From a virus, in the IMG/VR virus record IMGVR_UViG_3300036859_000086, positions 1 through 33,588 of that record: a stretch of DNA of 33,588 bases; one strand, given 5' to 3'. The notes beneath the pieces were generated by a model. That model was given only the letters and a program-made list of their open reading frames with translations. It ran no database searches and was not told where the DNA came from. Position numbers and translations under genes: made by a program. Below, piece after piece: positions 2,770 to 20,135 of this stretch; within the stretch, counting starts at the first letter, position 1; each line of letters begins with the position of its first letter.

Positions 2770-2798
2770 AGTCTACAGGAGGAAGAGATGTGTGGCAA
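2770..2798 (-). promoter_or_regulatory. Candidate housekeeping-type promoter for leaderless leftward operon
   Basis: On the minus strand, TTGCCA (2798-2793), a 17-nt spacer and TAGACT (2775-2770) match a sigma-70/SigA-type promoter with a TANNNT -10 box. The expected start, about 7 nt downstream, falls on or next to the ATG at 2763, which lacks a ribosome-binding site. The -35 lies inside the start of the divergent rightward gene at 2788. Confidence 0.45.
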
Positions 2799-2976
2799 CC
2801 CAATCCACCGAGTTGAGCTAGTTCTCTTTACTCATCCTTCAGACGTCAGACATAACGGTAAAAAGATGTGTTATATGGATGGTTTTTGTGATAACTGGAG
2901 TTGTGAATGTGACCACCCGCTAGATGATGACAACTGGCCAATCTGTGACTGCGAGATGGAAAATTATGAAGACTAG
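2788..2976 (+). CDS. Small Cys-rich acidic protein (62 aa)
   Basis: Rightward gene with a very strong ribosome-binding site (AGGAGGAAGAG directly before ATG). It has 62 residues, seven of them Cys, arranged mostly in the second half (CDNWSCECD, ICDCEMEN) among many Asp and Glu, so metal binding is likely. The family is unknown. It is the first gene of the rightward carbohydrate island and diverges from the leftward membrane-protein operon with 24 bp between the two starts. A second Cys/Asp-rich protein of similar size lies in the same island at 6679-6861. Confidence 0.65.
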   Translation: MCGNPIHRVELVLFTHPSDVRHNGKKMCYMDGFCDNWSCECDHPLDDDNWPICDCEMENYED

Positions 2977-3232
2977 ATCTAAAATCCCCGGGGTTGTCCG
3001 ACAGGTCTGCGGTCGCCCAAGGAAATGTCCCGGCTGCAATCCCGAAGACGGCCACCTCAATATGGATTGGGCGATTACGACGATGATTGATATCTTTTGC
3101 CAAATTGATCGGTGCAAGAGCAAAACTGGAAAAGTCAACGAAACCTGGAAGGCGTTGAGACTAGCAATCGAAGAGGTGTATCTAGATCATGAAGGTTGCG
3201 CTTGTCTTCCCTCTTCGGCTGACTCCAGATAG
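2966..3232 (+). CDS. Small zinc-finger-like protein (88 aa)
   Basis: 88-residue protein starting at an ATG that overlaps the end of the previous gene by 11 nt. Its N-terminal part has CGRPRKCPGC (Cys15, Cys21, Cys24) followed by a His, a plausible zinc knuckle. The middle is a likely helix (WAITTMIDIFCQI), and the end has CAC. An upstream ATG at 2924 is in frame but has no ribosome-binding site and would sit deep inside the previous gene, so I chose 2966, which follows GAGATGGA. The last 44 nt overlap the start of the glycosyltransferase gene. Function unknown. Confidence 0.55.
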   Translation: MKTRSKIPGVVRQVCGRPRKCPGCNPEDGHLNMDWAITTMIDIFCQIDRCKSKTGKVNETWKALRLAIEEVYLDHEGCACLPSSADSR

Positions 3233-3971
3233 ACAGGAAGCATGGGATGTCACCTCTGCGATAGTTCCCTCACTATTTCCGTTTTACCGAGTTTACACCT
3301 CTGACTCCGACCATTCGGACTTCAACCGCCCTGCTTCACGAAATGTCGGTGTTGATACTGCTCAAAAAGATGGAGCTGATGTTGTTGTTATCTGTGATGC
3401 AGACTCTGTTCCGGAAGAACTGCCGTTACACGAAGCAATCCAGGGTGCTTTTGATGACAGGCTGATGCACTACCCCTTCCATGAAGCGTGGTACGTCGAT
3501 TGGAAGGGCATGACCAGGGTGAAACAGCGAGCCACAGCGGATCAAGTAAGAAGTCGGATATGGGACAAATGCGCCTCGGAAGGAGGCGTCTGGGTTTGTA
3601 CTCCAGAGACGTGGTGGCAAGCCGGTGGCCAGGATCCCAGTCTAGCACATTGGGGCTGTGACGACAGAGCTTTTCTAGCAGCGGCGCGGACTCTCGTGGG
3701 TGACCCACAGAAGCATCAGGGCATCCTTTACTGTCTTCCGCATACCAGACCAACTGATGAAGAAATATGGGTTCCCGAAGAGGTCCAATTGATGATGCAG
3801 TACCAAGATGCTTATCAAAAACCACTACTGATGAAAGAGTTAATTGATGGCAGATCTAACTTATCTAGTTCCTTCGAGACAGCGTCCGAAGAACGCAGTC
3901 CAGCTGTACGAGTCTTTCAGAGAGACGTGCACATCAGACACAAAGCTAATCATTTTAGTAGATCAAGATGA
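3189..3971 (+). CDS. GT-A family glycosyltransferase (C-terminus overruns next gene)
   Basis: Nucleotide-sugar-dependent glycosyltransferase. It has a Rossmann-like start MKVALVFPLR, substrate-binding NRPASRNVGVDTA (46-58), the metal-binding DxD motif CDADSV (Asp70, Asp72), and a galactosyltransferase-like acceptor segment GGVWVCTPETWW ... WGCDDRAF (132-162). The recognisable domain ends around residue 218. The last 41 or so residues lie in DNA that also encodes the N-terminus of the next glycosyltransferase, giving a 125-nt overlap. In the +1 frame a TAA lies just before the next ATG, so a lost stop or indel is possible. The acceptor is unknown; phage proteins are the likeliest target given the neighbours. 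Confidence 0.8.
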   Translation: MKVALVFPLRLTPDRQEAWDVTSAIVPSLFPFYRVYTSDSDHSDFNRPASRNVGVDTAQKDGADVVVICDADSVPEELPLHEAIQGAFDDRLMHYPFHEAWYVDWKGMTRVKQRATADQVRSRIWDKCASEGGVWVCTPETWWQAGGQDPSLAHWGCDDRAFLAAARTLVGDPQKHQGILYCLPHTRPTDEEIWVPEEVQLMMQYQDAYQKPLLMKELIDGRSNLSSSFETASEERSPAVRVFQRDVHIRHKANHFSRSR

Positions 3972-4719
3972 CCCGACTCTTTCAACCTACTACAGGCTAC
4001 TTAATGGTGTGGGCCAAGTTACAGCAGTTGGCCCGGGCCGTAGAGGCATGGTTGCGGCTCTTCAATCTGGATACGAGATCCACAGAGATCAGCTGGGATT
4101 TGCAGTTGGGTTTCTCGGTGACGATCACCGGCCAAGGACGCCAGGGTGGGACACTGCATATCTTAACTCTCTGCGGGAGCTGGGTACAGGAATCGTGTAT
4201 GGCGACGATCTCTTTCAACACGAAGCTATCCCCACTCAAGTAGCGATGACGACAGATATTCCGAAGACTCTGGGGTATATATGCCCTCCCGAATTTGATC
4301 ACCTCTGTGTGGATGTTGTATGGAATGACTGGGGTAAGGCAATCCAGAAGATTCGCTATCTTCCGGCGGTTGTTGTTGAGCACGTCCACTATCTCGCCGG
4401 TAAAGCTCAGAAGGATCAAACGTATAGCGACGTCAACAGCAGCGTAATGGCTGCGCACGACTCTGCTGCTTATCAGGAGTATATGAATGGCAACTTCTCA
4501 AGAGATGTCGACAAACTGAAGAAGCTTGTTGCTCCGCCGAAGAATTTATACGTTCCGAAGGTGAAGCCAGAACCTCCAGTTGTGGAGGTTGTTTCTCAGG
4601 ACTCAGTTGGGCAAGCGATGGAAGTCACTATCGAGCCAGCAAAGGTCGAGATCGTCGAAAGAGATAGCTCCAGAGCGAAGCGTGGTCGTCCGGCGAAAAA
4701 ACCACTCACAAAGGAGTGA
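3847..4719 (+). CDS. GT-A glycosyltransferase with basic AT-hook-like tail
   Basis: 290-residue glycosyltransferase-like protein of a type seen often in actinophages. The N-terminal motif is TYLVPSRQRPKNAVQLYESF (5-24), followed by LIILVDQDDP (35-43) and the catalytic-site segment FLGDDHRPRTPGWD (89-102), equivalent to the DxD region. The fold extends to about residue 230. A low-complexity tail rich in Lys, Pro, Val and Glu follows, ending in KRGRPAKKP, which has the RGRP core of an AT-hook. The ATG at 3847 is preceded by an in-frame TTG that I ignore. It begins inside the previous gene and its stop overlaps the ribosome-binding region of the next. Confidence 0.8.
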   Translation: MADLTYLVPSRQRPKNAVQLYESFRETCTSDTKLIILVDQDDPTLSTYYRLLNGVGQVTAVGPGRRGMVAALQSGYEIHRDQLGFAVGFLGDDHRPRTPGWDTAYLNSLRELGTGIVYGDDLFQHEAIPTQVAMTTDIPKTLGYICPPEFDHLCVDVVWNDWGKAIQKIRYLPAVVVEHVHYLAGKAQKDQTYSDVNSSVMAAHDSAAYQEYMNGNFSRDVDKLKKLVAPPKNLYVPKVKPEPPVVEVVSQDSVGQAMEVTIEPAKVEIVERDSSRAKRGRPAKKPLTKE

Positions 4720-4721
4720 TG

Positions 4722-5537
4722 ATGAAGGGTCTAGTCTCTTTCTCCCTCTTCGGTGATGACCCGAACGACTGCTACTACTCCGGTGCTATCAAAAATGCCG
4801 AACGCTATCACCAGATATGGCCAGAATGGGATTTGTGGTTCTTTGTTGGTCGTTCCGTTCCGGATTATGTCCTTTCTCAAATCAAAGCCCTGAATCCTAA
4901 TGTCTCTTTCGAATTTGTTGACGAACCAGAAGATCAAACATCGACGTGGTGGCGGTTCCGGGCAATTAAACACTCAGAACACGACTTCATCCTCTTTAGG
5001 GATGTCGACAGTAGGCCGATTCTCCGAGAAGTGATGGCCGTAGAGGAATGGATAGAATCAGATCCAAAGCAGTTCCCTTATCATGTGATGCGAGATCATC
5101 AATATCACGGCAGAGTAATTCTCGCAGGACTCTGGGGGCTTAAGAGGCAAGCTTTCTACAACCATCGGGCGATTCCTGATAGAATCGATGGTGATTACTA
5201 CGGCACAGACCAAATTGCTCTTCAGGCATTGGTATGGCCAGTGTGTAAGAGGGTCGTGATGGCTCATATTGGTTGTTATCAAATCTTCGAGAAGATGGAT
5301 CAGCGCCGGCCGTTTACGGTTAGAAGATCAGAAAAAGAGCCTTTTGTAGCTCAAGGGTTGGATGCCAAAGACAACCCTCGCTACCCAGGCCACGAACAAT
5401 TTGTTGACTCGGACTTAGAACTTCGGCGCAGGAACGACGTATTTCAGGAGAAATATCGTGTACAAGGAGAGATGCCGGCCTTCGTGGACCGCAGAGCGCC
5501 TAAAAGAAATCTATTCCAGCCCGTGGCGGATGAATAA
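4722..5537 (+). CDS. Glycosyltransferase-like protein (GT-A, DVD motif)
   Basis: 271-residue protein. It begins with a short beta strand (GLVSFSLFG), has a Trp-rich substrate region (WPEWDLWFFVGRSVPDYV) and a metal-binding FRDVDSRP (Asp94, Asp96), then YYGTDQIALQALVWP, which resembles the acceptor side of GT-A enzymes. Three start codons stand in a row (GTG 4716, ATG 4719, ATG 4722); the last is 5 nt after GGAG and is the best placed. The final 80 nt overlap the following methyltransferase gene in another frame. The sugar donor cannot be told from the sequence. Confidence 0.7.
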   Translation: MKGLVSFSLFGDDPNDCYYSGAIKNAERYHQIWPEWDLWFFVGRSVPDYVLSQIKALNPNVSFEFVDEPEDQTSTWWRFRAIKHSEHDFILFRDVDSRPILREVMAVEEWIESDPKQFPYHVMRDHQYHGRVILAGLWGLKRQAFYNHRAIPDRIDGDYYGTDQIALQALVWPVCKRVVMAHIGCYQIFEKMDQRRPFTVRRSEKEPFVAQGLDAKDNPRYPGHEQFVDSDLELRRRNDVFQEKYRVQGEMPAFVDRRAPKRNLFQPVADE

Positions 5538-6021
5538 CGACTGGGGAGACCACAAACAACGACTAGAGTTTACAGAGAGAGTGGCAAGGAAGATTGTTGA
5601 TGTCGACCAGACGGCAGCCGCTGCTGATCTTAGCTGCGGCGACGGCTATTGGGAGAGGGTATTTCCTGATTGGGATTGGCAGCTTGGAGATTACGCCAGT
5701 GGCTACGAGTATGTTGGGCCTATCGAAGATATGATAGATCGTATATTTGATGTCGATATCTTTTTCTTCTGCGAAACCATTGAACATCTTGAAGATCCCG
5801 ATTACGTCCTTCGAAGAATTAGGGAGAAGTCAAAGAAACTTATTCTCTCGACTCCGTTGAGATACGCAGAAATGGGTCCTGATCCTAATCCCCAACATTA
5901 TTGGGCTTGGGACGAGGCTATGATCAGAAAGATGCTAGTGGATTCAGGGTGGACTCCTAAAGAATACACTCAGACTCGCTACCAACCAGGGTATATATTT
6001 CAGATTTGGGGATGCGAGTGA
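5458..6021 (+). CDS. Class I SAM-dependent methyltransferase
   Basis: 187-residue methyltransferase of the Methyltransf_23-like group. Motif I is AADLSCGDGYW (55-65), which binds S-adenosylmethionine; the acidic/His segment FFCETIEHLEDPDYVL (104-117) is typical of small-molecule and sugar O- or N-methyltransferases; LILSTPLR follows as the strand before the active site. The GTG at 5458 follows CAGGAG by 7 nt. It retains an N-terminal helix (LKEIYSSP ... HKQRLEFTE) usual in phage relatives, so the internal ATG at 5530 is less likely. It lies between glycosyltransferase and nucleotidyltransferase genes, which suggests that it methylates a sugar. Confidence 0.8.
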   Translation: MYKERCRPSWTAERLKEIYSSPWRMNNDWGDHKQRLEFTERVARKIVDVDQTAAAADLSCGDGYWERVFPDWDWQLGDYASGYEYVGPIEDMIDRIFDVDIFFFCETIEHLEDPDYVLRRIREKSKKLILSTPLRYAEMGPDPNPQHYWAWDEAMIRKMLVDSGWTPKEYTQTRYQPGYIFQIWGCE

Positions 6022-6692
6022 ATGTAGATGACGTCGTGGTCTTTATTCCATGTGCAGGTGACCAGGAGAGGTGGGCGAACCACCTCGGCTACTCTAAACA
6101 TCTAGTTCCTGTAGTTAATCGAGAGCCACTACTACATCGCACCATCCGACAGCTTAACGAACGTCATATTACTCCTTGGGTTGTTGGTAAGGCTAATGAC
6201 GCCAGATATATCATCGAAGGAAGTAACTTCTTTGAAGCTGCGCTAGATCCTAGATTATACGGCCAGGGCCGGTTCCGGACATCTGAAGCTCTTTATAACT
6301 ACTCAGGAAGAACAATTGAGTTCCTCGGAGACGTCTTCTTCACTGATGAAGCTATGGACACCATCTTGAGCGACGAACGGCGCGGGTGGAGAGTTTACGG
6401 AAGAATTGGAGCTTCGAAGTTTACTGGCTGTGAGTACGGAGAGATCTTTGCTCACTCTTTCTACGCTGAAGACATCCCGAAGCTAATCGATGTGTCAGAC
6501 TACATCATTCGAGGCATCGAGATCGGATTAGTAACTCCTGGAGCTTCCCATTGGGATCTCTATTGCTGGATGGCTAGATGTTCTTCTTGGGACTACAAAC
6601 CTGAGTGTTTTACTATCATTGATGATTTTACGGAAGACTTCGACTATCCACACGACTACGACACCTGGAAAAATAGATATGGCTTACGCTAG
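6018..6692 (+). CDS. Sugar nucleotidyltransferase-like protein
   Basis: 224-residue protein with the N-terminal signature of NTP-transferases: strand VVVFIPCAG, loop GDQERWANHLG and SKHLVPVVNREPLLHRTI (26-43). In that family this region binds the nucleoside triphosphate and the Lys contacts phosphate. LGDVFFTDEAMD supplies the Asp usually needed for metal. It would activate a sugar phosphate to an NDP-sugar donor for the nearby glycosyltransferases. The GTG at 6018 overlaps the previous stop as GTGA and sits 6 nt after GGGG; an ATG at 6012 is possible but has no room for a ribosome-binding site. Confidence 0.7.
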   Translation: MNVDDVVVFIPCAGDQERWANHLGYSKHLVPVVNREPLLHRTIRQLNERHITPWVVGKANDARYIIEGSNFFEAALDPRLYGQGRFRTSEALYNYSGRTIEFLGDVFFTDEAMDTILSDERRGWRVYGRIGASKFTGCEYGEIFAHSFYAEDIPKLIDVSDYIIRGIEIGLVTPGASHWDLYCWMARCSSWDYKPECFTIIDDFTEDFDYPHDYDTWKNRYGLR

Positions 6693-6861
6693 TGACGAGT
6701 GCAGGCTCTGCGACGACTGGGACGACGGAGAAGGGTGCATCGAAGGCAGGTGGTACGGCCACTGTATGGATGACTTCTGCCACGGGATGTGTGAATACTT
6801 AGGCGACTGCGACTGTAGTAATTGCCACGGATTGATTGAGATTGGTGTATTGAATGGGTAA
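6679..6861 (+). CDS. Small Cys/Asp-rich protein (60 aa)
   Basis: 60-residue acidic protein with nine Cys, mostly in pairs (CRLC, CHGMC, CDCSNC), plus several Asp and His. This indicates metal binding, probably zinc. The ATG at 6679 overlaps the end of the previous gene by 14 nt; the upstream in-frame ATG at 6619 would give a low-quality N-terminus, so I reject it. The Shine-Dalgarno is weak (GGAAAAATAG). It resembles the Cys-rich protein at 2788-2976 in size and composition, though I cannot show that they are homologous. Confidence 0.55.
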   Translation: MAYASDECRLCDDWDDGEGCIEGRWYGHCMDDFCHGMCEYLGDCDCSNCHGLIEIGVLNG

Positions 6862-6879
6862 TCAGAGATTATCTCAAGA

Positions 6880-6892
6880 GGAGGTACCCTCC
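6880..6892 (+). promoter_or_regulatory. Ribosome-binding site folded into a small hairpin
   Basis: The Shine-Dalgarno GGAGG (6880-6884) pairs perfectly with CCTCC (6888-6892) across a TAC loop, directly before the ATG at 6894. The 5-bp hairpin could limit initiation at this methyltransferase gene. A 3-nt loop makes it only moderately stable. Confidence 0.4.
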
Positions 6893-6893
6893 G

Positions 6894-7475
6894 ATGGGTG
6901 AATGGCGACTACAGGAGACGAACTTCCCGTCAACTTTTGAATATCATCAGGGTCGCGAGCGAGTTCCTCATCTAGAGCAGAGTTGGCATAAAGGGAGGCT
7001 GTATGCAGCTGCGAAAATGGTTAGGAGTGTTCAGCCGAATACTGTGGTGGACCTTGGTTGCGGTGACGGAGGACTCCTTCAGATTCTCAAAAGTCAAGGC
7101 ATTAGCTGTTGGGGCTATGATTTCCAACCGTCTAATGCCCAGGGCTGGAAAGAAAGGAATGTCATAGCGTACCAAGCTGACATATTCAACACAGACTTCT
7201 CTGAAGTCCAGTGGGGAGATGTAGCTGTAGCTACCGAGGTTCTAGAACATCTAGACGACCCCCACGGAGCTGTCCACGACATCAGCTATAAGAGCAAATA
7301 TCTTGTTGCCTCTTCTCCTGTCAACGAACGCCCCGGGGACGGTGCGTGCGACAGCCATATCTGGGCTTGGGATCTTGAGGGCTATGCCGCCCTACTAGCT
7401 CCTCACTTCACTGTCATCCAACAGAAGGTGGTCGACTGGAATCAGTTAATTCTCGGAAGGAGCAGATATGTCTAA
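6894..7475 (+). CDS. Class I SAM-dependent methyltransferase
   Basis: 193-residue methyltransferase, distinct from the one at 5458. The N-terminal FPSTFEYHQGRERVPHLEQS (11-30) is a segment that I associate with actinophage relatives. Motif I is TVVDLGCGDGGLL (50-62). The acidic residue of GYDFQPS ends the second strand, and EVLEHLDDP (115-123) is the usual post-motif II segment. SHIWAWDLEGYAALL follows near the end. It probably methylates a small molecule or a sugar. The gene has a very strong ribosome-binding site (which may be partly sequestered) and overlaps the next gene by 8 nt. Confidence 0.8.
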   Translation: MGEWRLQETNFPSTFEYHQGRERVPHLEQSWHKGRLYAAAKMVRSVQPNTVVDLGCGDGGLLQILKSQGISCWGYDFQPSNAQGWKERNVIAYQADIFNTDFSEVQWGDVAVATEVLEHLDDPHGAVHDISYKSKYLVASSPVNERPGDGACDSHIWAWDLEGYAALLAPHFTVIQQKVVDWNQLILGRSRYV

Positions 7476-8181
7476 GCCGATGTGGCATCGAGTTTGGGAT
7501 TGGGTAGTTAAATTTATCAATTCTACTCCCCCACCAAAGTCTATTCCAGAACCTATTCCAACACCACCACCAACATCTACACTTCTCTTCAGGGATGACT
7601 TCTCCAATCTATCTAGTTGGAGATTATATGACTCTGCTGGCCACGCTGGTAACGGTCTTAGATCTCCTTCGCAGATTTCTGTTGTTGATGGCATCCTAAC
7701 AATTACAGGAACAGCTAATGGAACCACAGGCGGGATGATGCTGAGTGGTCATGAGCTTACTGGCGGAACTGTTTCGGTTAGGATGCGAGCACCTGCGGGT
7801 GCTGGAAAGTATCACCCTGTGGTGTTGCTTTGGCCATCTACTGACAGATGGCCAGATGATGGTGAGATTGATTTCGTTGAGATTTTGAATAGACCAGAAA
7901 GAGACCGTAACGACTTCACAGTCCACTACGGCACAGCAAACAGTCAAATTAGCAATGGTATCGCTGTAGATATGACTCAGTGGCATACCTACTCTGTAAC
8001 CTGGACTCCAGATTACATCTCAGCGGCTGTTGATGACGTCGAGTATTTCCGCACCACAGACAAAGCAGCTTTCCCTCCAGTGCCGATGAACGTCTGCATC
8101 CAACTGGATTGGTTCCCATATGCCGATACAACTAGCGGTTCAGGAGTGATGGAAGTAGATTGGGTTGAGATTAGTGCCTAA
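7468..8181 (+). CDS. GH16-like glycoside hydrolase with Pro-rich linker
   Basis: 237-residue protein. Residues 1-20 form an amphipathic Trp-rich helix (MWHRVWDWVVKF) and 21-36 a Pro/Thr/Ser linker. Residues 40-237 look like a concanavalin-A-like jelly roll of family GH16: DDFSNLSSW near the start, the catalytic ExDxxE motif in DGEIDFVEI (Glu133 nucleophile, Asp135, Glu138 acid/base), then WHTYSVTWTPDYISAAVD, typical of the family. All three catalytic acids are present, so it is probably active on a beta-glucan or galactan-type polymer. It has no export signal. Placement within the glycan island suggests trimming, binding or transglycosylation of the virion glycan, or degradation of a surface polysaccharide. 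Confidence 0.8.
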   Translation: MSKPMWHRVWDWVVKFINSTPPPKSIPEPIPTPPPTSTLLFRDDFSNLSSWRLYDSAGHAGNGLRSPSQISVVDGILTITGTANGTTGGMMLSGHELTGGTVSVRMRAPAGAGKYHPVVLLWPSTDRWPDDGEIDFVEILNRPERDRNDFTVHYGTANSQISNGIAVDMTQWHTYSVTWTPDYISAAVDDVEYFRTTDKAAFPPVPMNVCIQLDWFPYADTTSGSGVMEVDWVEISA

Positions 8182-9091
8182 GCAAGCTTTAATAACCGGA
8201 TCTGACGGTTTTGTAGGAAGACATATTACCAAGCTCCTCGAAGATAAGGGGTGGAGAACTTTAGGCATCGACATCACCCAGGGAAATGACGCTGTGAAGT
8301 ATTTCCAACGTGGTACAGATCGATTCGATCTCGTGGTCCACGCTGCTTACGTAGTGGGCGGCAGAGCTACAATTGATGGTACGAATACAGCTCTTATTTC
8401 TAATGAGCTGTTGGATGTTTCGATGTTTGATTGGGCTCTACGAACGAAACAAAAGGCTGTGCTGTACTTCTCAAGCTCGGCTGCATATCCGGTGTGGCGT
8501 CAGGAGAAAGAGTATGTCGATTCTTTAGGGCAGCAGCACTTCAAGAGCCTGCGGGAAGATGACGTCACTCTAGAAGACAGAGATTATCCAATTCTTCCCG
8601 ACACCCACTATGGCTGGGCGAAACTCAATGGCGAACGTCTAGCGAGAGTAGCTGGTGAAAATGGCGTACGGGTACATGTCGTCCGGCCCTTCTCCGGATA
8701 TGCAGAAGACCAATCTTTGGATTATCCCTTTCCCAGCATCATCAGACGAGCTACAGATGGAGATCTCTCCGTTTGGGGTCCAAATGGACAAACACGAGAC
8801 TGGATACACATCTCTGACGTCGTAGAAGGTGCGTACGCGGTTTACAAGAACGACGAACGTCGACCAGTAAATCTCTGCACCGGGAGAGGTGTTGAGATGG
8901 GGGATTTGATGGTTAAAGCATGGAAATATGCTCAACCAATCCCGTCATCTTATACGCCGGAGATTACTTACCTAACCGATAAACCAACTGGTGTTTTCCA
9001 CAGAGTGGGCAACCCCACGAGGATGAACGAACACTATAAAGCTAAGGTCAGTCTTGAAGAAGGAATTAAACGCGCATTGGCGCAAAGCTAA
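8174..9091 (+). CDS. Extended-SDR NAD-dependent sugar epimerase/dehydratase
   Basis: 305-residue extended short-chain dehydrogenase acting on NDP-sugars. The NAD-binding glycine motif is ITGSDGFVGRH (7-17), DLVVHAAY (52-59) follows, the Ser of YFSSSAAYP (98-106) and the YxxxK pair Tyr146/Lys150 in HYGWAKLN form the catalytic site, and VRPFSGYAEDQ plus GQTRDWIHISDVV are typical of the substrate domain. The product could be an epimerised or 4-keto sugar nucleotide. The GTG at 8174 overlaps the previous gene by 8 nt and gives the short N-terminus expected for the family; a TTG at 8165 is possible. It is the last gene before the terminase. Confidence 0.85.
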   Translation: MPKQALITGSDGFVGRHITKLLEDKGWRTLGIDITQGNDAVKYFQRGTDRFDLVVHAAYVVGGRATIDGTNTALISNELLDVSMFDWALRTKQKAVLYFSSSAAYPVWRQEKEYVDSLGQQHFKSLREDDVTLEDRDYPILPDTHYGWAKLNGERLARVAGENGVRVHVVRPFSGYAEDQSLDYPFPSIIRRATDGDLSVWGPNGQTRDWIHISDVVEGAYAVYKNDERRPVNLCTGRGVEMGDLMVKAWKYAQPIPSSYTPEITYLTDKPTGVFHRVGNPTRMNEHYKAKVSLEEGIKRALAQS

Positions 9092-9129
9092 GCATCATGA
9101 CACTCCCGGGGAGTTGATTCCAGGAGAAT

Positions 9130-9687: not shown

Positions 9688-9702
9688 TCCCAGGAGGATA
9701 AT

Positions 9703-11248
9703 GTGATTCCACAAGGGTTGCCTGAGCACACACTCGGGTGGGAAATTTTAGACTGGAGTAGCCAGATGCTGGCTCAGCCAGATGGCGACAATCAGGGAGA
9801 TGCGTGGCAATTCACGGATGAACAAGCGATGTTTATCTTGTGGTTCTACGCTGTAGGCGGTGATGGAAAGTTCCTGTACAGAAATGCCGTATTGGAAAGG
9901 TCGAAAAGGCTGGGGAAAATCACCGCTGCTTGCAGCTATCAGCTGCGCTGAGCTTCTTGCTCCGACGAACTTCGCCGGGTGGGACTCTGAAGGTAAGCCT
10001 GTAGGGAAGCCTACAGCTAGCCCGTTAGTCCAGATTGCAGCTCTTTCTGAGAGCCAAGCAGACAACACAATGAGCTTGGTTATTCAGATGCTCTCTAATG
10101 GTCAAGCAGTTTATTACTACCCATATCTTGATATCAATTTATCGAAGATTACCTATCCCGGAGGTAAAAAGCTAGAAAAGGTTACGGCATCTCCTCGTGG
10201 TCGAGAAGGCAACCGTGCGACGTTTGTTGTGATGGATGAAACCCACCTTTGGGTGCCGGCCGAAAAGGGTCCAGAGCTTTACCAAGCTCTCTCTCGTAAC
10301 CTCGCCAAGATGAATCGTAGATGGGTCGCTACTACGAACGCTCATGCTCCTGGAGAGAACTCTGTAGCTGAGACGCTCTATAACCAACACGTTGTAGCTA
10401 TTAACGGCACAGGGTTCGATACTAAGATGCTCTTCGACACCAGAGAGGTGTTCGTAGACGACCTCTCGGATAAAGAAGAGGTATTGCCCGCGTTGAAGTA
10501 TGTCTACGGAGACGCTTGGTGGATTGATGTTGAAAACTTCTTCATTGAAATTCAAGGAACTCCAGAGCACATCGCCAGGCGATTCTTTTTCAATCAACAT
10601 GTCGAGGGAAGCTCGACTTGGATTAAGCCCAAGGTCTGGGAAGGTTGCAGAGAGAAGGATCTCCTTGCCAGAAGGCGCCTTCGGACTAATGATGTCATTG
10701 CTCTTGGTTTTAAGGGTAACACCATCCGTGGAGCAGCTGTTGTCGGTTGTCGTCTTGAAGACGGTGCACTCTTCGATCTAGGTTGGTGGGAGAATCCTAA
10801 CCTCGACTCCACTGCAAGATGGGAAGTCCCATTTAAGGATGTCGATACTAGACTCCGCAATCTGATGATGAAGTACAGAGTGGCGAAAGTCGTCGCTGAT
10901 GCAAATCAATATCAGGACATCATCGGTAGGTGGGCTGCTGACTACGAAGACGAAGTCGAGGAGTTCTGGGTTCAGAATAAAACGAAGATGGCTAAGGCTG
11001 TTGAGCAATTTGAATCAGCAGTAGAGACGAAGCGTCTCCTTTGGGTCTCTGCTGATATCTCTAGGCATGTTCAGAGTTGCCACCTTGAAGAAGTTCCTCA
11101 GGGATACATTCTCCGTCAAGAAACTCAGAGTTCTAAGAGGTATATCTTTGGTGCTCAAGCCGCTGTTCTTGCATTCGAAGCAGCCACCCTCGCTATTGAA
11201 GAGGGTGCTCTACGGCCAATGGCCGATAATACGCTTTATACATTTTGA
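9703..11248 (+). CDS. Terminase large subunit, reading frame shifted (+1) at Walker A
   Basis: ATPase-nuclease motor that packages DNA. The start is GTG 9703 after AGGAGG. The protein is readable only as two frames: 9703-9906 (68 residues, ending LERSK) joined to 9908-11248 (446 residues, beginning GWGKSPLLAAI). Joined, they restore the P-loop SKGWGKS and a 514-residue protein. One extra A in AAAA (9904-9907) separates them. Walker B is TFVVMDETHLW (Asp178, Glu179). The C-terminal half is the RNase-H-like nuclease, but where relatives in my memory have an acidic GFDGS-type motif this has GFKGN (Lys337), and near the end YIFGAQAA replaces an Asp-containing segment. It may be a true mutation, a sequencing error, or programmed frameshifting. 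Confidence 0.8.
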
Positions 11249-11268
11249 TTTAACAAGGAGGTGAAGGG

Positions 11269-12888
11269 TTGTCTCAGCCATATTCCAACGTCAACGTCTC
11301 TGCACCTCTAGGCCAGGGAACAAAGGGTAATCCCTTTAAGGCCGTAAAGAAAAAGGATATTTCAAGAAATAACTACGAGCCAGGTACGCCGTGGTGGTGG
11401 CTACAACGGCTCACTCAGAAACTTCTCGACAGGCGAGCAAGGTATGACCTCCTAGAGGATTACGCCACTGGTAATCATCCACTACCAAATGCCGATTACA
11501 GATACGCAAAGGCGCTTCGTGATCTCCAACAGAAGGCTAGAACAAACTACTGCGGGCTGATTATTTCTGCTACTACAGAGAGAATGACAGTTAAGGGTTT
11601 TAGGTTTGGGCCGGCTGGAGAAGCTGACGAGGACGCCAAGCGTATCTGGGACTACAACGACATGGACTTCCAAGCACCAATGAACCACCAAATCGGAGGG
11701 ACATTTGGAGTTTGTTATGGGATGGTTAGTCCTCCGGACCCGACAGATCCTGATAGCGAACCAATTATAACAATTGAAGATCCGAGGATGTGTATCGTCG
11801 AACGAGATCCAAAGAGAATCACCAGAAGCTATGCTGGGTTGAAGATATGGCAGGACGACACCCTTGAGATGATTGTCGCATGTCTTTATTTGCCCACAGA
11901 GATTCACACATTTACATCTACCAAAACTCCAGCCCAGATTTTCGCTCAAGAATCGCATCTCTCCCTCTACTCAGATGGTGGAAACTTCTACATCGGAGAC
12001 CAATTCGAATATGCATTTACTCAGCCCAACCCGCTCGGAGAGGTGCCGTTAGTTGAGGGTCAGTGGCAGCCGACGCTCGGAGAGCTGAGCAAAGCTGAAC
12101 ACGAAGACGTCCTGGATATCCAAGACAGAATTAACCATACCGTCCTCGACCGATTGATTATCTCTAAGAGCCAAGCGTACCGACAGCGCTGGGGAACTGG
12201 CATCAAGCTTGATGGGAAGAGCAAGAAGGCTCCTTTCGAGCCTGGTGCGGACATGCTTTGGCTAGTCCAAGACCAAGATGCTCAGTTTGGTGACTTCGAA
12301 ACCGCTGACATCGAACAACTTCTTTCTGCTGTAACGCATGACGTCGGAGATATGGCTGCTACCACTAAAACTCCTGCAACGTATCTAATGAATAGAATGG
12401 TAAACGTCTCAGGTGACGCTCTAGCCCAAGATCAATCCGGGTTGGTTCAGAAGGTTAAGATGCGAGAACAAGCTGTTGGCTGGTTTTACGAACGTCTGAT
12501 GAAACTAGCGTTCAAATATAAAAACGACGAACGATGGAAGCAAATTGAAGCATCCACTCTTTGGACTGATCCAGAGATTCGGACGTTGGCAGAATCTGGC
12601 GACGCAGCTGGGAAGTTCGTTTCTGCTGGAATCCCACTCCCGTTGGTTATGGAAAGGTTTAACTTCACTCCTGACGAAATCGCATTCACAGTGAAGTGGA
12701 CTGAAGAACAGGAAGCGAAGCAACTCGCGAGAGAGGACCAACAGGCCCAACAAGCTCACGACCAAGCAATTGAGCAGCAGAAGGTCAAAGCTGTAGCTGC
12801 CGGTAGTGGCAGTAGTAGCACCTCTTCTGCAAAACCTAAACCTAAATCCACCACTGCTACATCCACAAAACCATCGGGGGGGAGGTAA
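11269..12888 (+). CDS. Portal protein (SPP1 gp6-like)
   Basis: 539-residue portal, the dodecameric DNA channel of the head vertex. Supporting segments are RARYDLLEDYATGNHPLP (55-72), NYCGLIISATTERMTVKGF (about 92-110) with FRFG following, and a central region with RINHTVLDRL and YRQRWGTGI, typical of actinophage SPP1-type portals. The long C-terminal region (about 480-539) is low complexity, rich in Gln, Ala, Ser, Thr and Lys. The start is a TTG with an ideal Shine-Dalgarno (AGGAGG, 7 nt upstream). The gene's last codons contain the ribosome-binding site of the next small gene. The position after terminase agrees. Confidence 0.9.
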   Translation: MSQPYSNVNVSAPLGQGTKGNPFKAVKKKDISRNNYEPGTPWWWLQRLTQKLLDRRARYDLLEDYATGNHPLPNADYRYAKALRDLQQKARTNYCGLIISATTERMTVKGFRFGPAGEADEDAKRIWDYNDMDFQAPMNHQIGGTFGVCYGMVSPPDPTDPDSEPIITIEDPRMCIVERDPKRITRSYAGLKIWQDDTLEMIVACLYLPTEIHTFTSTKTPAQIFAQESHLSLYSDGGNFYIGDQFEYAFTQPNPLGEVPLVEGQWQPTLGELSKAEHEDVLDIQDRINHTVLDRLIISKSQAYRQRWGTGIKLDGKSKKAPFEPGADMLWLVQDQDAQFGDFETADIEQLLSAVTHDVGDMAATTKTPATYLMNRMVNVSGDALAQDQSGLVQKVKMREQAVGWFYERLMKLAFKYKNDERWKQIEASTLWTDPEIRTLAESGDAAGKFVSAGIPLPLVMERFNFTPDEIAFTVKWTEEQEAKQLAREDQQAQQAHDQAIEQQKVKAVAAGSGSSSTSSAKPKPKSTTATSTKPSGGR

Positions 12889-12892
12889 GTAG

Positions 12893-13006
12893 ATGGCTAC
12901 TAAGAAACCAACGATGCCACCGGCTAAGAAAGCTGTGCCAGGCAAGAAAGCAGTTCCGCCGGTACCAACCAAGAAGAAGCCCTATCCGCCCAAGAAGGGT
13001 AAGTAA
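12893..13006 (+). CDS. Lys/Pro-rich basic miniprotein (37 aa)
   Basis: A 37-residue protein made mostly of Lys, Pro, Ala and Val, with repeated KKAVPGKKAVPPVP and KKKPYPPKKGK. ATG 12893 follows the strong site GGGAGG in the portal's end. It is strongly basic and probably disordered, so it may bind nucleic acid or acidic scaffold surfaces, but that is inference. It sits between portal and scaffold, where several actinophages carry short basic genes. Function unknown. Confidence 0.6.
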   Translation: MATKKPTMPPAKKAVPGKKAVPPVPTKKKPYPPKKGK

Positions 13007-13082
13007 GTAGCGATTAAACCTGAATGGATCTGGCATCTATTCAACTTTAACACCATAAATTTGAATCCCAGGAGGATTGAGA

Positions 13083-13730
13083 ATGACTGCACCAGAGGGC
13101 CAGGAGCCCGAACAGATCGAAACCACTGATGACGTAAACGTAGAAGAGCCTAATCTCGTCAAGCCCGTATTCACTAAGACGAAGTCTCCAAAGGTTCCCC
13201 TTCCGGAACTTGATGGATCGACTTCTCCAGATGAATACGACGAAGACGGTGTTACTGGCGATACTAACGACTCCATCAATGCGCCTCTGGAAGGGCTAGA
13301 TGACGTCAATGTGTTGAAAGGAATGGTTGTGCGTCTTCGACACGAAAACGCGAATCATCGGAAGGGGAAGCAGGAAGTTGTCAAGGAGCGAGATTCGCTA
13401 AAGGCTGAGAAGCTTACCAGGAGTAAGGCTATCGAAAAAGCTAACGAGCGCGTCCTCGCAGCAGAAAGAATTGCGAAGCAGTATGTCATCCTCGCAGCGA
13501 TGCGAGAGTATGACGTCGACGAGGAAATGGCTGACCTGATTGATGGGGAAAACGAAGAGGAGATCTTCGATAAGGCTAAGCGGCTTGCCGGCACAAGAAA
13601 GCAAAAGCCAGCTTACGACACCCCAACTAATGTCGACCTGTTCGCTGGGAAGCGTGGTAATCCACTAACCCGCAAAACAGATTCAGGCGGCGCAGATTTC
13701 CTTAAGGATCTGATGCGCGGTAACTTCTAG
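13083..13730 (+). CDS. Capsid scaffolding protein
   Basis: 215-residue acidic protein directly before the capsid gene. Residues 1-80 are disordered and rich in Asp, Glu, Pro and Thr. Residues 82-145 form a long charged helix or coiled coil (MVVRLRHENANHRKGKQEVV through ANERVLAAERIAKQ), as expected for scaffold. The C-terminal region includes basic segments and ends FLKDLMRGNF, the usual capsid-binding type of tail. ATG 13083 follows AGGAGG; the in-frame TTG at 13077 is rejected. No protease gene lies between portal and capsid, so scaffold is probably released intact or removed by another route. Confidence 0.8.
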   Translation: MTAPEGQEPEQIETTDDVNVEEPNLVKPVFTKTKSPKVPLPELDGSTSPDEYDEDGVTGDTNDSINAPLEGLDDVNVLKGMVVRLRHENANHRKGKQEVVKERDSLKAEKLTRSKAIEKANERVLAAERIAKQYVILAAMREYDVDEEMADLIDGENEEEIFDKAKRLAGTRKQKPAYDTPTNVDLFAGKRGNPLTRKTDSGGADFLKDLMRGNF

Positions 13731-13782
13731 ATCTTTCCTATTTATACATTTAATCATCTAAAAATAGAAGGAGGTGAACCAC

Positions 13783-14772
13783 ATGGCTTATAATGATGTA
13801 ACTGAGCGGACTAGTACCTCGCGTACCGCGCGGGAAATTCCAGAGACCGTAGCTAGCGGCATCCTAAGTGATGTCTTTGAAGGTTCAGCTGTTCTGAAGC
13901 TCGGGGATACGTTCCCGATGCCTGCCCTACAGCACCGGATCGCAGTTCTGAGCGCATTCGCTGACGCATACTGGCTTCAGGGTGCTTCTCAGAGCGTAAA
14001 GGATTCTGCTCTAAAGCAGACCACCAAACCACTTTGGGATAACGTCTACATCACCCCAGATGAGCTTGCTGTTCTGGTCGTCATTCCTGACGCCTGGATG
14101 GCTGACTCTAACATCACCTGGGATGAAATCAGGAAAGAGGTCTCTCGGGCGTTCGCTCGAAAGATTGACCAGGCTGTTCTATTCGGCGACGGTACCCCGC
14201 CTGCCGGTTTCAGTGGTCCTGTTGGTGGTATTATTGGTGGTGCCGTTTCGGCGGGTAACTTCACCACTCTTGGTACTACTGTGTCGGGTTCCTACAACGA
14301 CGTCGGGCTAGACCTTGCTGACGTTGCTGAGGACCTAAGCCGTGACGGCTATGACGTCACTGGTTGGGCAGCTCGTAAGGGCTTCTCTTGGCAGCTGACC
14401 AAGACTCGTGATACCACGGGTCAGCCAATCTACTCCACCACCCTTGGTGGTCCGGATGGTCCTAACACCGCTGCGCTCTACAACCGCCCGTACTACGAGG
14501 TCGGCAACGGCGCATGGGACGACACAGAGGCTCTTGCCATCTGTGGCGAGTGGGACAAGTTGAAGATTGGTGTCCGTCAGGACATGACTTTCCAGGTATT
14601 CGACAGCGGTATCATCTCTGATGACTCCGGTAACGTCGTCTACAACGCTATGCAGCAGGACGGTAAGGTTCTCCGGGCGGTAATGCGTCTTGGCTATGCC
14701 GTACCAAACCCTGTGAAGGCTCTTGGTGGGACATTCCCATTCGGCGCTCTTCGCCCAGTGGGCGCTAGCTAA
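13783..14772 (+). CDS. Major capsid protein (HK97 fold)
   Basis: 329-residue main shell protein. The start REIPETVASGILSDVFEGSAVLKLGD (about 17-42 as a region) is the N-arm/E-loop entry typical of HK97-fold capsids of this size. WDEIRKEVSRAFARKIDQAVLFGDGTPPAGF is the conserved spine-helix region with the FGDG motif (residues 131-134). IGVRQDMTFQVFD and AVMRLGYAV mark the P- and A-domain ends. It has no long N-terminal delta domain. GTG 13774 is in frame, but ATG 13783 is better spaced from the AGGAGG at 13769-13774. An AT-rich leader (13731-13770) precedes it and a strong hairpin follows, fitting high and separately controlled expression. Confidence 0.9.
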   Translation: MAYNDVTERTSTSRTAREIPETVASGILSDVFEGSAVLKLGDTFPMPALQHRIAVLSAFADAYWLQGASQSVKDSALKQTTKPLWDNVYITPDELAVLVVIPDAWMADSNITWDEIRKEVSRAFARKIDQAVLFGDGTPPAGFSGPVGGIIGGAVSAGNFTTLGTTVSGSYNDVGLDLADVAEDLSRDGYDVTGWAARKGFSWQLTKTRDTTGQPIYSTTLGGPDGPNTAALYNRPYYEVGNGAWDDTEALAICGEWDKLKIGVRQDMTFQVFDSGIISDDSGNVVYNAMQQDGKVLRAVMRLGYAVPNPVKALGGTFPFGALRPVGAS

Positions 14773-14787
14773 TCCACTATTTCTCTT

Positions 14788-14818
14788 CGAGAGGGAGGGC
14801 TCCGCGCTCTCCCTCTCG
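14788..14818. terminator. Strong hairpin terminator after the capsid gene
   Basis: A 13-bp stem (14788-14800 with 14806-14818, one G-T pair) around the loop TCCGC, then GGGGG rather than a T-run. Located 15 nt after the capsid stop and before the second glycan block, it should separate the two transcripts or reduce readthrough. Confidence 0.75.
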
Positions 14819-14856
14819 GGGGAAGTTTAAACAGGCAACTGAACGGAGGCGCCGAC

Positions 14857-15588
14857 GTGGCCAGTGCATTCTGGTGGATAGGTAGCCAATCTACTCCCCG
14901 GAAGAATTTTGGAGATCTACTAACACCCCTCTTACTAGAACGATTTGGTGGCGTCACAGTGGAGTGGCAACACGCTGCCGCTGCCGACGTCCTCTGCGTG
15001 GGTTCTATTCTCGAATCTGTCACTCCTACTTACTCAGGTATTGTTGCTGGCTGCGGGAAGCTTCGCGAAGAAACTGATGCGGTTTCGAAGCTCAAGAACT
15101 CGAAAGTATTGGGTCTGCGCGGTCCGCTGTCCGCCAAAGGCGTCCGTGGGAATTACGTCCTCGGGGATCCTGGGTTGCTTGCTGATGAGCTAGTAGTGAC
15201 CGAGAAAAAATACAACCTCGGCATCGTCCCTCACTGGAGTGATAAAAGAACGTGGTCTCAGTTCTCTCAGTGGAATCCTAGAATCATCAGACCCACTGAT
15301 GACCCGCTGTATGTTCTTTCTGAAATAGGAGCATGCAAGAAAATCATCACTTCTTCTCTCCATGGGTTGATAGTCGCTGATGCATTTCACATCCCCAGGC
15401 GCATCGAATACTCGGAGACGATGGATCGAGAAGGTGGGCAATTTAAATTTAGAGACTACCTCTCTTCAATAGGGATGTCCTTGCAACTAGGCGTCACTCA
15501 AGAAGCTCCACGATATAAGATAGAAGATATCCAAGCTGAACTATTCGACATGCTTGAAGAAGTGGGTCAGTTGCTACGGAGGTCATGA
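14857..15588 (+). CDS. Polysaccharide pyruvyltransferase-like protein
   Basis: 243-residue member of the polysaccharide pyruvyl transferase family (PF04230 type) by pattern: NFGDLLTPLLLERFGG (17-32), a Gly-rich segment IVAGCGKLREE, LGLRGPLSAKGV (85-96), GDPGLLAD (103-110), and the family signature SSLHGLIVADAF (166-177). Members add ketal-linked pyruvate to sugars, or act as glycosyltransferase-like enzymes. GTG 14857 follows GGAGG by 7 nt. Ends by ATGA overlap with the next glycosyltransferase gene, so the two are coupled. The acceptor is probably the glycan made by the surrounding enzymes. Confidence 0.8.
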   Translation: MASAFWWIGSQSTPRKNFGDLLTPLLLERFGGVTVEWQHAAAADVLCVGSILESVTPTYSGIVAGCGKLREETDAVSKLKNSKVLGLRGPLSAKGVRGNYVLGDPGLLADELVVTEKKYNLGIVPHWSDKRTWSQFSQWNPRIIRPTDDPLYVLSEIGACKKIITSSLHGLIVADAFHIPRRIEYSETMDREGGQFKFRDYLSSIGMSLQLGVTQEAPRYKIEDIQAELFDMLEEVGQLLRRS

Positions 15589-16418
15589 TGAAAAGAAAAC
15601 ATCACCACAAGCCAACTATTAGCCTCCTCGTACCCTTTCGTTCAAATGACCCATATCGCCGTAGAGTATTCGAGTGGCTTAAGAAGTATTGGGCTCATGA
15701 ACTTCCAGAGGCAGAGTTAGTTATTGGTCACAATCACTCGATCCCCTACTCCAAAACTTCTGCTGTCAACGACGCAGCAGCCCGCGCTCGTAGTGACATA
15801 TTCGTAGTGTTGGATGCCGATTGCTACATCCCTGGCTCAGTCATCAGAGATGCTGTAGCTAGAATCAAAAGATCAGCCCGAAAGGGTCATCGGTTGTGGT
15901 TTATTCCATATCGTAGAGTTTATAGACTAACTGAAGAAGCAACCGCCAGGGTTCTTGCATCCGACCCCTGTAACCCTCTTCGCTTTCCTACTCCGCCGTC
16001 AGACCTAGATGTCGAATCAACAGAAGGCTCTGCCTTTGGCCACAGATTCGGAGCACTTATCCAGATTCTCCCAAGAGAAGCTTTTGAAATTGTTGGCGGG
16101 ATGGACCCTAGATTTTGTGGTTGGGGTGGCGAAGACATCGCATTTGTTCGGGCTGTCGACACCCTTTGGGGTAAGCATAAAACAACCAATAACGACGTTC
16201 TCCACCTATGGCATCCGAAGATCGGAACTGGATGGGCCACCCGAGAGTGGGAGGGTCAGTCGCGGCCTCGCACCAATGACAACCTCGCCGTACGCTACAA
16301 CCTCGCTACTGGCGACAGAGCGAAGATGCGGAAACTTGTAGATGACGGAAAGAAGCAACGAACGCATCCCATCATAGAATTTATCCGCAGGGTGATGTGG
16401 TGGCTTCGAAACCGTTAA
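15588..16418 (+). CDS. GT-A glycosyltransferase with galactosyltransferase-like C-terminus
   Basis: 276-residue glycosyltransferase. Family-2-like start ISLLVPFRSNDPYRRRVFEW (11-30), KTSAVNDAAARA (56-67), DxD in FVVLDADCY (Asp76, Asp78), then GGMDPRFCGWGGEDIAF (170-186), the acceptor motif typical of Glyco_transf_7C/galactosyltransferases, and a metal-ligand His in VLHLWHP (about 204-210). Two ATGs overlap the previous stop as ATGATGA; the second (15588) is 5 nt from GGAGG and is chosen. The strongly basic N-terminus (KRKHHHK) and the basic, Trp-rich end could dock it to a surface. Its order after the pyruvyltransferase suggests joint action. Confidence 0.85.
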   Translation: MKRKHHHKPTISLLVPFRSNDPYRRRVFEWLKKYWAHELPEAELVIGHNHSIPYSKTSAVNDAAARARSDIFVVLDADCYIPGSVIRDAVARIKRSARKGHRLWFIPYRRVYRLTEEATARVLASDPCNPLRFPTPPSDLDVESTEGSAFGHRFGALIQILPREAFEIVGGMDPRFCGWGGEDIAFVRAVDTLWGKHKTTNNDVLHLWHPKIGTGWATREWEGQSRPRTNDNLAVRYNLATGDRAKMRKLVDDGKKQRTHPIIEFIRRVMWWLRNR

Positions 16419-16433
16419 GTATTAGACAGCGAG

Positions 16434-16464
16434 GGGAGAGAGGACTTCCTCGGTCCTCTCTCCC
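16434..16464. terminator. Hairpin terminator between converging genes
   Basis: A perfect 12-bp stem GGGAGAGAGGAC / GTCCTCTCTCCC around loop TTCCTCG, shortly after the rightward glycosyltransferase stop and before the end of the leftward gene at 16495. It probably works for both directions. Confidence 0.7.
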
Positions 16465-16472
16465 GCTCATCT

Positions 16473-16489
16473 CTTCCGTCCCCCGGAAG
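16473..16489 (-). terminator. Small hairpin downstream of leftward miniprotein gene
   Basis: Stem CTTCCG/CGGAAG (6 bp) with loop TCCCC, 5 nt beyond the leftward stop codon. It is much weaker than the neighbouring 12-bp hairpin, so its role is uncertain. Confidence 0.3.
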
Positions 16490-16494
16490 TCTAC

Positions 16495-16677
16495 TTATCG
16501 TGCCGCATCCTGTAGTTCGTGACCGATGTGGTAACGCTTGCACTTCCTGCATATATAAACGGTCATATCTTCCATCATATGTGACTCGATGAACTTCCAC
16601 GCCTGCTGCTCATATTCGAATCCCATCTTTTCTTTAGCTTTTGGGAAGCTGTAATGCTGCCCCCTTTTCGTAGCCAT
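16495..16677 (-). CDS. Leftward zinc-ribbon-like miniprotein (60 aa)
   Basis: Leftward gene whose ATG follows a perfect Shine-Dalgarno (AAGGAGATGGG) on the minus strand, which strongly supports it as real. The 60 residues comprise a basic start (MATKRGQHYSF), a charged helix (KAKEKMGFEYEQQAWKFIES) and a likely zinc site ICRKCKRYHIGH (Cys x2 Cys with two His). Small proteins of this type are often regulators or DNA/RNA binders, but no specific function can be assigned. It diverges from the GT-B gene with 21 bp between starts and converges on the glycosyltransferase at 15588. Confidence 0.7.
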   Translation of the reverse strand: MATKRGQHYSFPKAKEKMGFEYEQQAWKFIESHMMEDMTVYICRKCKRYHIGHELQDAAR

Positions 16678-16698
16678 CCCATCTCCTTAGGACAATAA

Positions 16699-17703
16699 AT
16701 GAAGATTCTTGCTTACACTCCTACGTACGTCGGCTCTGGCCACAACGCTGGCGCCGAGACCACTTTACACGGTCTCCTGAGCGCCCTGAAGAGACAAGGG
16801 CACGATGTGATGGCTCTCGCATCCCGGCCGTTTAAAGATGGGTCTCAGAGTTACGTAGCAGGCTCTGTGATGGTGCAGGCGTACTCCAGCAAACGTGATC
16901 CTGAGCTTTACTTCCCCGGTTGCGATCTCATCATAACACAGTTCGAGTGTGCGCAGCGCGCGTGGTACATCGGAGATCAGCTTCAAATCCCAACTGTCCA
17001 GGTAGTTCACAACAACACCGAGTACGCCACGAATCTCGCTGTTCGCTATAACACCGCTCTTGTTTACAACGCTGAGCATGTCCAGCGCTCCATTGATGAA
17101 GCTCAGAAAGAAACCAAGGGCAAAATTAAACCCTCAGTTTTGGTGAGACCAATTATAGATCCCGAGATCTATCGAGTTGAGACTTCACGAGAATATATTA
17201 CACTAGTGAATCTTTCTGATGGAACTCCTCCATTTTACAACAAAGGCTACGAGATCTTCTACCACCTTGCCGAGAAGTTTCCTGATCAGAAGTTTCTAGG
17301 AGTGAAGGGCGCTTACGGCGAACAGGTCGTTAGGGAGATGGAGAATGTCACGATTTGGGAACACCAGATGAATCCCCTAAACATCTACCGACAGTCGAAG
17401 ATTATTTTGATGCCTTCAGAGATCGAATCATGGGGGCGTGTCGCTATAGAAGCAGCGTGTTCTGGGATTCCTAGTTTAACTAGCACTGCTCCTGGCTTGG
17501 TCGAAAGCAATATCGGTCACGACCAGATCCCTTGGGGGAGACCTGATATGTGGGAAGAGGGGCTAGAGAAGCTTCTGGGCGACTACGACAACGCTTCCTA
17601 CTCAGCTGAGCATAAGGCTACGCGTCTTCATCTCTCTAATGAGTATGAAGTCGGATACTTCCTCGAATTTATCGAGGAGGTCGCCAAGAGGCGACTGAAG
17701 TAA
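16699..17703 (+). CDS. GT-B (family 4-like) glycosyltransferase
   Basis: 334-residue enzyme with two Rossmann-like domains. The N-terminal domain has ILAYTPTY and GAETTLHGLLSALKRQGHDV (18-37), the acceptor-side helix typical of family 4. The C-terminal donor domain has ITLVNLSDG, NKGYEIFYHLAEKFPDQKFLGVKG and the sugar-nucleotide motif ILMPSEIESWGRVAIEAACSGIP with the EX7E pair Glu243/Glu251. The family retains the sugar's configuration when transferring. The only GT-B enzyme in the window, it ends the second glycan block. The start has only a weak ribosome-binding site (TTAGGAC). Confidence 0.9.
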   Translation: MKILAYTPTYVGSGHNAGAETTLHGLLSALKRQGHDVMALASRPFKDGSQSYVAGSVMVQAYSSKRDPELYFPGCDLIITQFECAQRAWYIGDQLQIPTVQVVHNNTEYATNLAVRYNTALVYNAEHVQRSIDEAQKETKGKIKPSVLVRPIIDPEIYRVETSREYITLVNLSDGTPPFYNKGYEIFYHLAEKFPDQKFLGVKGAYGEQVVREMENVTIWEHQMNPLNIYRQSKIILMPSEIESWGRVAIEAACSGIPSLTSTAPGLVESNIGHDQIPWGRPDMWEEGLEKLLGDYDNASYSAEHKATRLHLSNEYEVGYFLEFIEEVAKRRLK

Positions 17704-20113: not shown

Positions 20114-20135
20114 CTACTACAAAACGGACAATAGA

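Follow-up and report, generated by a model that had tools for sequence, protein, structure and literature searches.

A putative virion O-glycosylation system split around the head genes of an actinophage-like virus, and an associated terminal serine on capsid and tail tube proteins

In 2023, virion glycosylation was described for a few mycobacteriophages (Freeman 2023, through citing papers). According to three later papers, the glycans sit at the C-termini of mycobacteriophage capsid and tail tube subunits (PMC12619734, via Freeman 2023); Che8, Corndog, and Myrna are named as glycosylated phages (PMC12363180, via Freeman 2023), with capsid glycosylation reported for the Che8/F1 group (PMC12363180); and in cluster O three glycosyltransferases (GTs) encoded downstream of an O-methyltransferase modify capsid and tail tube (PMC11600133). 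Here we describe eleven sugar-enzyme genes, all on the plus strand, in an actinophage-like IMG/VR record of 33,588 bases (IMGVR_UViG_3300036859_000086; the whole stretch is called the window below). They lie on either side of the genes for the terminase small and large subunits (TerS and TerL), portal, scaffold, and major capsid protein (MCP). The left arm encodes three GT-A enzymes (GT1, GT2, and GT3), two methyltransferases (MT1 and MT2), a probable nucleotidyltransferase (NT), a GH16-like hydrolase, and a nucleotide-sugar enzyme of the short-chain dehydrogenase/reductase type (SDR); the right arm encodes a pyruvyltransferase-family protein (PyrT), a further GT-A enzyme (GT4), and an enzyme of GT-B fold (Table 1). 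We consider it likely that this is a phage-encoded virion O-glycosylation system in which GT-B initiates on the C-terminal serine of MCP and of the major tail (tube) protein (MTP), and the other enzymes extend and modify the glycan.

Cluster O, represented by Firecracker (Corndogvirus; the Corndog-group phage that we compared), resembles the window in having an O-methyltransferase and GTs within the head operon (gp33-36), in that gp35 is homologous to both GT1 and GT4, and in the terminal serines of its capsid and tail-tube proteins (MCP LVGS, MTP KGDS). In contrast, no GT-B, SDR, NT, PyrT, or GH16 is annotated there, and its genes fall between portal and protease, while those of the window fall before TerS and after MCP. 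The preliminary description of this DNA called the set richer than a minimal system; richer it is, but virion glycosylation with a methyltransferase beside several GTs was already known from cluster O, and the window therefore represents a fuller version of a kind of system already described. The Che8/F1 group shares a related MCP (Starcevich, ~26% identity), and Che8 ends its MCP in KTGS and its MTP in SDGS, but the two GT genes of Starcevich are at the right end of its genome and are not homologous to GT-B. In the Streptomyces phage TurkishDelight, gp20 is a GT-B homologue of predicted function, encoded between MCP and MTP genes whose products both end in serine; unlike that of the window, it is a tandem of two GT-B domains and a single gene in the region seen, and the 575-aa capsid protein of this phage is different. 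The Tunturiibacter jumbo phage Tunturi_5 has adjacent homologues of PyrT (47%) and GT4 (46%), gp300-gp301, but this is a 308-kb phage of an acidobacterium, and its pair lies away from head genes.

The capsid-linked GT-B and the last residue of MCP and MTP

Searching viral contigs with a GT-B profile produced 138 relatives; the 80 that were kept group into 60 clusters when a 90% identity threshold is applied (scans with the PyrT or GT-B sequence alone gave no confirmed match; the profile queries succeeded). MCP is encoded just upstream in 39 of the 60 clusters, the head-tail adaptor downstream in 40, and both in 32. The full MCP-GT-B-adaptor order was also retrieved from bacterial genomes at 20 loci, mainly prophages, in Streptomyces, Kitasatospora, Micromonospora, Kutzneria, Actinomadura, Sphaerisporangium, and Nonomuraea, and in a few metagenome bins; the remaining GT-B matches in bacterial genomes have no recognised head genes nearby. 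Six Streptomyces prophage loci (L142, L143, L145, L146, L149, and L151) carry a second GT-B after the adaptor (MCP-GTB-adaptor-GTB-stopper).

The preliminary description had proposed head or tail proteins as the glycan acceptors, a proposal that is strengthened, and narrowed to MCP and MTP, by a terminal serine that these two proteins share in GT-carrying phages. Among GT-B-linked loci, with sequences >80% identical removed, the last residue is Ser or Thr in 43 of 45 MCPs (Ser 42, Thr 1) and in 33 of 35 MTPs (Ser 31, Thr 2). The same loci furnish controls, of which far fewer end in Ser or Thr: scaffold (6/58), portal (4/44), TerL (7/33), tail terminator (10/44), adaptor (1/48), stopper (0/47), and GT-B itself (3/57). 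The Ser-ended tails are otherwise dissimilar (e.g. LRPVGAS, NGSTYDYS, and YTADGVGS). We rejected a general enrichment of C-terminal tails in serine: Ser makes up ~6-7% of the 29 residues before the last one, and few of the other structural proteins end in it.

We also assembled a wider set by adding loci found through MCP, not GT-B, together with twelve cultured phages. In this set the MCP ends in Ser or Thr in 47 of 49 cases with a GT as against 4 of 25 without (p = 2e-12). Here “without” denotes the absence of GT-B from the part of the locus covered or, in cultured phages, the absence of any PF00535 match from the full record; prophages in this class may have a GT elsewhere in the genome. 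At 60% identity the corresponding counts are 23 of 24 and 2 of 16 (p = 7e-8). The MCP tree allows five independent contrasts, four in agreement and one tied, with no reversal. Among the 12 cultured phages, which have homologous MCPs, Starcevich and Guey18 alone end both MCP and MTP in Ser, and these two alone have PF00535 glycosyltransferases, at other places in the genome. What a specialist would not expect is the association with a terminal serine and the link of GT-B to the capsid gene; a literature search combining C-terminal serine, phage glycosylation, and capsid found nothing, most subscription papers lying outside that search.

Two arms of one probable system in relatives

In G001 (L002, L015), the closest relative by MCP (78%), the left arm reads GT1-GT2-GT3-MT1-MT2-SDR-TerS and the right MCP-GT-B-adaptor, without NT, GH16, PyrT, or GT4; its MT2 homologue (in L002) is 56% identical and adjoins SDR, and SDR adjoins TerS in L002, L020, and L022 as it does in the window. 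Two further relatives, G005 and G006, keep GT2-GT3-SDR ahead of TerS, and G006 also keeps GT1. The 57.6-kb contig G016 is probably near complete, because TerS and TerL lie at its ends; it carries GT1-GT2-GT3-MT1-SDR-PyrT-GT4 in its left arm and MCP-GT-B-adaptor in its right. GT2 is thus conserved in all four of these relatives, and MT1 in G001 and G016. This presence/absence comparison, suggested as a check in the preliminary description, reveals a recurring order and content of sugar genes, which rules out chance clustering of the enzymes.

The PyrT-GT4 pair occupies the left arm in G016 and the right arm in the window, a switch which suggests that both arms serve one pathway. In a PyrT profile search of viral contigs, a GT4 homologue adjoins PyrT in 27 of 27, and in two of these (L120 and L121) both are in a single reading frame; the fused open reading frame (ORF) at L121:3257-4810 (517 aa) is flanked by TerL and portal, and its contig comes from an unrelated phage. 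Occurring also in jumbo phages, the pair suggests a terminal-sugar module exchanged between unrelated phages.

As to the remaining points of the preliminary description, the presence of eleven enzymes flanking terminase, portal, and capsid is confirmed, and the idea of one split system gains from both the tie of GT-B to the capsid gene and the mobility of PyrT-GT4. The system had been taken to start at 2788; its first enzyme begins at 3189, and 2788-3232 holds two small Cys-rich ORFs. The inclusion of GH16 is doubtful: it has no match among phage records and no homologue in the arms of near relatives, and viral contigs give short partial matches only (100 residues, 35%). The nucleotidyltransferase call gains weak fold support, while among near relatives the gene, like GH16, is a window-specific extra; for both, relatives are too few for placement.

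Proposed pathway and competing explanations

In the pathway that we propose, GT-B, which is the GT that these phages have in common, would attach the first sugar to the terminal Ser shared by MCP and MTP, the two most abundant proteins of the virion, and GT1, GT2, GT3, and GT4 would lengthen the glycan. SDR, perhaps with NT, would produce an unusual nucleotide sugar donor, MT1 and MT2 would methylate the glycan, and PyrT, acting as a unit with GT4, would add a pyruvyl group to the residue added by GT4. Gene content, synteny, the terminal-serine association, and the PyrT-GT4 pairing provide the basis, from which we infer the enzymatic activities, their order of action, the role of GT-B as initiator, and the chemistry of the glycan; a methylated or pyruvylated product is predicted from family names. 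A broader proposal is more tentative, and we would not put it at even chances: a general C-terminal serine code, in which GTs of at least two unrelated folds, GT-A and GT-B, would have come by convergence to target the final Ser of capsid and tail-tube proteins, such that one residue predicts glycosylated virions, and to which the window lineage would have added a mobile PyrT-GT cap yielding a pyruvylated virion glycan.

Several observations weigh against glycosylation of virion proteins at their terminal serine. The last residue is N or A (after GS) in two of the GT-B-linked MCPs and Ser in four of the MCPs without a GT, and the independent phylogenetic contrasts are few (5). In 13 of the 60 GT-B clusters neither MCP nor adaptor is near, and the GT-B family therefore has other contexts too; these clusters may belong to other phages. 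Myrna, though reported to be glycosylated, ends its MCP in Ala and its candidate tube protein in Val, so the terminal-serine rule is not universal. The C-terminal position of the glycans is itself taken from papers citing Freeman 2023.

Among other explanations, the GTs might glycosylate different virion proteins, such as tail fibres, spikes, or Gly-rich or collagen-like fibres, with the serine ends of MCP and MTP having another cause and the position of GT-B possibly an accident of operon ancestry. Fibre-like proteins of Gly-rich, G-X-Y-repeat, or spike-like type are indeed encoded inside the left arms of G005, G006, and G016; examples among relatives are L137:623-4231, L133:4336-6486, and L132:4575-5837. 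We nonetheless regard this explanation as unlikely: the left arm of the window encodes no Gly-rich, G-X-Y, or spike-like fibre protein, and the terminal Ser is limited to MCP and MTP and tracks the GT even where the C-terminal sequences and the GT families are unrelated. Alternatively, the enzymes might modify a host surface polymer, in receptor masking or superinfection exclusion. Capsule and exopolysaccharide loci typically combine SDR, pyruvyltransferase, and GT sets, and PyrT-GT4 pairs are also found in large phages, at a distance from the head genes. But no flippase or polymerase was recognised within the window, its sugar genes flank the head genes and lie amid late genes, and modification of a host polymer leaves the terminal-serine association unexplained, so that we give this alternative little credence. 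Modification of phage DNA bases is highly improbable, for although DNA-glycosylating phage GTs exist (Pyle 2024, as cited in PMC12619734) and one GT2 match is to a PHROG family with the name DNA methyltransferase, the genes to which GT-B is tied are those of the head rather than of replication, and the near-complete G016 has ThyX and no dUMP/dCMP hydroxymethylase among its Pfam matches (G016 only, the window being a fragment).

If virion O-glycosylation by these enzymes is the correct reading, the phenomenon probably reaches many uncultivated phages as well as prophages in sequenced genomes of Streptomyces and related bacteria. A probable initiating enzyme can be named from its place after the capsid gene, and a one-residue marker becomes available for the phages and proteins that may bear a glycan; with this marker and with prophages of culturable strains, a direct mass-spectrometric test is possible.

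Enzymes and neighbouring features

Table 1. Sugar enzymes, proposed acceptor proteins, and a landmark gene in the window
Feature	Position	Strand	Evidence and remarks
GT1, GT-A glycosyltransferase	3189..3971	+	phrog_1721 (galactosyltransferase) 2.7e-20; DAD motif
GT2, GT-A glycosyltransferase with C-terminal extension	3844..4719	+	phrog_14945 1.1e-42
GT3, GT-A glycosyltransferase, GT8-like fold	4716..5537	+	predicted fold; DVD motif
MT1, S-adenosylmethionine (SAM) methyltransferase-like	5458..6021	+	Methyltransf_23 0.0013, under Pfam cut-off
NT, probable sugar nucleotidyltransferase	6006..6692	+	phrog_33187 (unknown function) 6e-35
MT2, SAM methyltransferase	6894..7475	+	Methyltransf_23 2.8e-12
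GH16-like hydrolase	7468..8181	+	Glyco_hydro_16 7e-17
SDR, nucleotide-sugar epimerase/dehydratase	8165..9091	+	Epimerase 2.7e-27
MCP, proposed acceptor	13774..14772	+	Phage_capsid 8.8e-20; ends ...RPVGAS
PyrT, polysaccharide pyruvyltransferase-family protein	14857..15588	+	PF04230 1.6e-10
GT4, GT-A (galactosyltransferase-like)	15585..16418	+	phrog_1721 3e-19; Glyco_transf_7C
GT-B (GT4-type) glycosyltransferase	16699..17703	+	Glycos_transf_1 (PF00534) 2.5e-8
Head-tail adaptor	17739..18329	+	phrog_442 1.7e-16; landmark downstream of GT-B
MTP, proposed acceptor	19553..20113	+	phrog_117 1e-29; ends ...DLVPSS

The SDR, PyrT, GT-A, and GT-B enzymes have intact signature motifs. GT-B contains the E-x7-E motif, with E243 and E251 invariant, and its profile matches predicted glycosyltransferases (e.g. 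3c48). PyrT scores 41.8 bits against PF04230 (cut-off 25.3) and has an SSLHG motif (SxLHG) at residue 166, and its predicted activity is pyruvyl transfer from phosphoenolpyruvate; PDB sequence searches with PyrT and with SDR gave no match at the cut-offs used. GT1, GT4, and Firecracker gp35 are members of one family (blastp 3e-6 and hidden Markov model 1.5e-33 for GT1; blastp 5e-9 for GT4). GT3 had no match in family searches; its AlphaFold2 model (predicted template modelling score, pTM, 0.72) retrieves with Foldseek the GT8-type GT-A enzymes glycogenin and LgtC (E 4e-7). The model of NT is weak (predicted local distance difference test, pLDDT, 52), its top fold matches being sugar-1-phosphate nucleotidyltransferases (best 4ecm, E 1.2e-3). 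In Streptomyces phages, relatives of GT2 adjoin nucleotidyltransferases, and an NT homologue has a GT and an MT as neighbours. The GH16 catalytic motif E-[ILV]-D-x-x-E is present as EIDFVE and aligns with laminarinase 3iln.

The window, probably a fragment, encodes portal, capsid, and tail proteins with kinship to those of actinobacterial siphoviruses; its sugar region has no nucleotide-level match among phage records. The order is p120, endolysin, tRNA-Met, left sugar arm (3189-9091), TerS, TerL, portal, scaffold, MCP, right sugar arm (14857-17703), adaptor, stopper, tail terminator, MTP, chaperones, and tape measure, followed by tail genes and two spike-like proteins. An RNA family scan of the window retrieved the tRNA as its sole match, and a defence-system library gave nothing beyond a weak methyltransferase match. 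TerL is split into ORFs at 9703-9951 and 9860-11248 by a one-base frame change at an A run in the Walker A region, as compared to a single intact TerL of 512 aa in L002; the split may be a sequencing error, a real break, or a frameshift.

Within 16415-16698, between GT4 and GT-B, 60 bases make up a stable hairpin (-30 kcal/mol), and a minus-strand ORF of 60 aa (16495-16677) has a good ribosome-binding site; at the matching place L002 has a minus-strand HNH-like ORF. An Endonuclease VII/HNH-type ORF (20031-20597) overlaps the 3′ end of the MTP gene, and similar HNH genes adjoin MTP, portal, and TerL in G016 (L139), a pattern typical of homing endonucleases. The tRNA and the left arm are separated by a small membrane-protein-like ORF on the minus strand (2458-2763), which may be holin-like. 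Within the left arm, the short Cys-rich ORFs at 2788-2976 and 6679-6861 (62 and 60 aa) are alike in composition.

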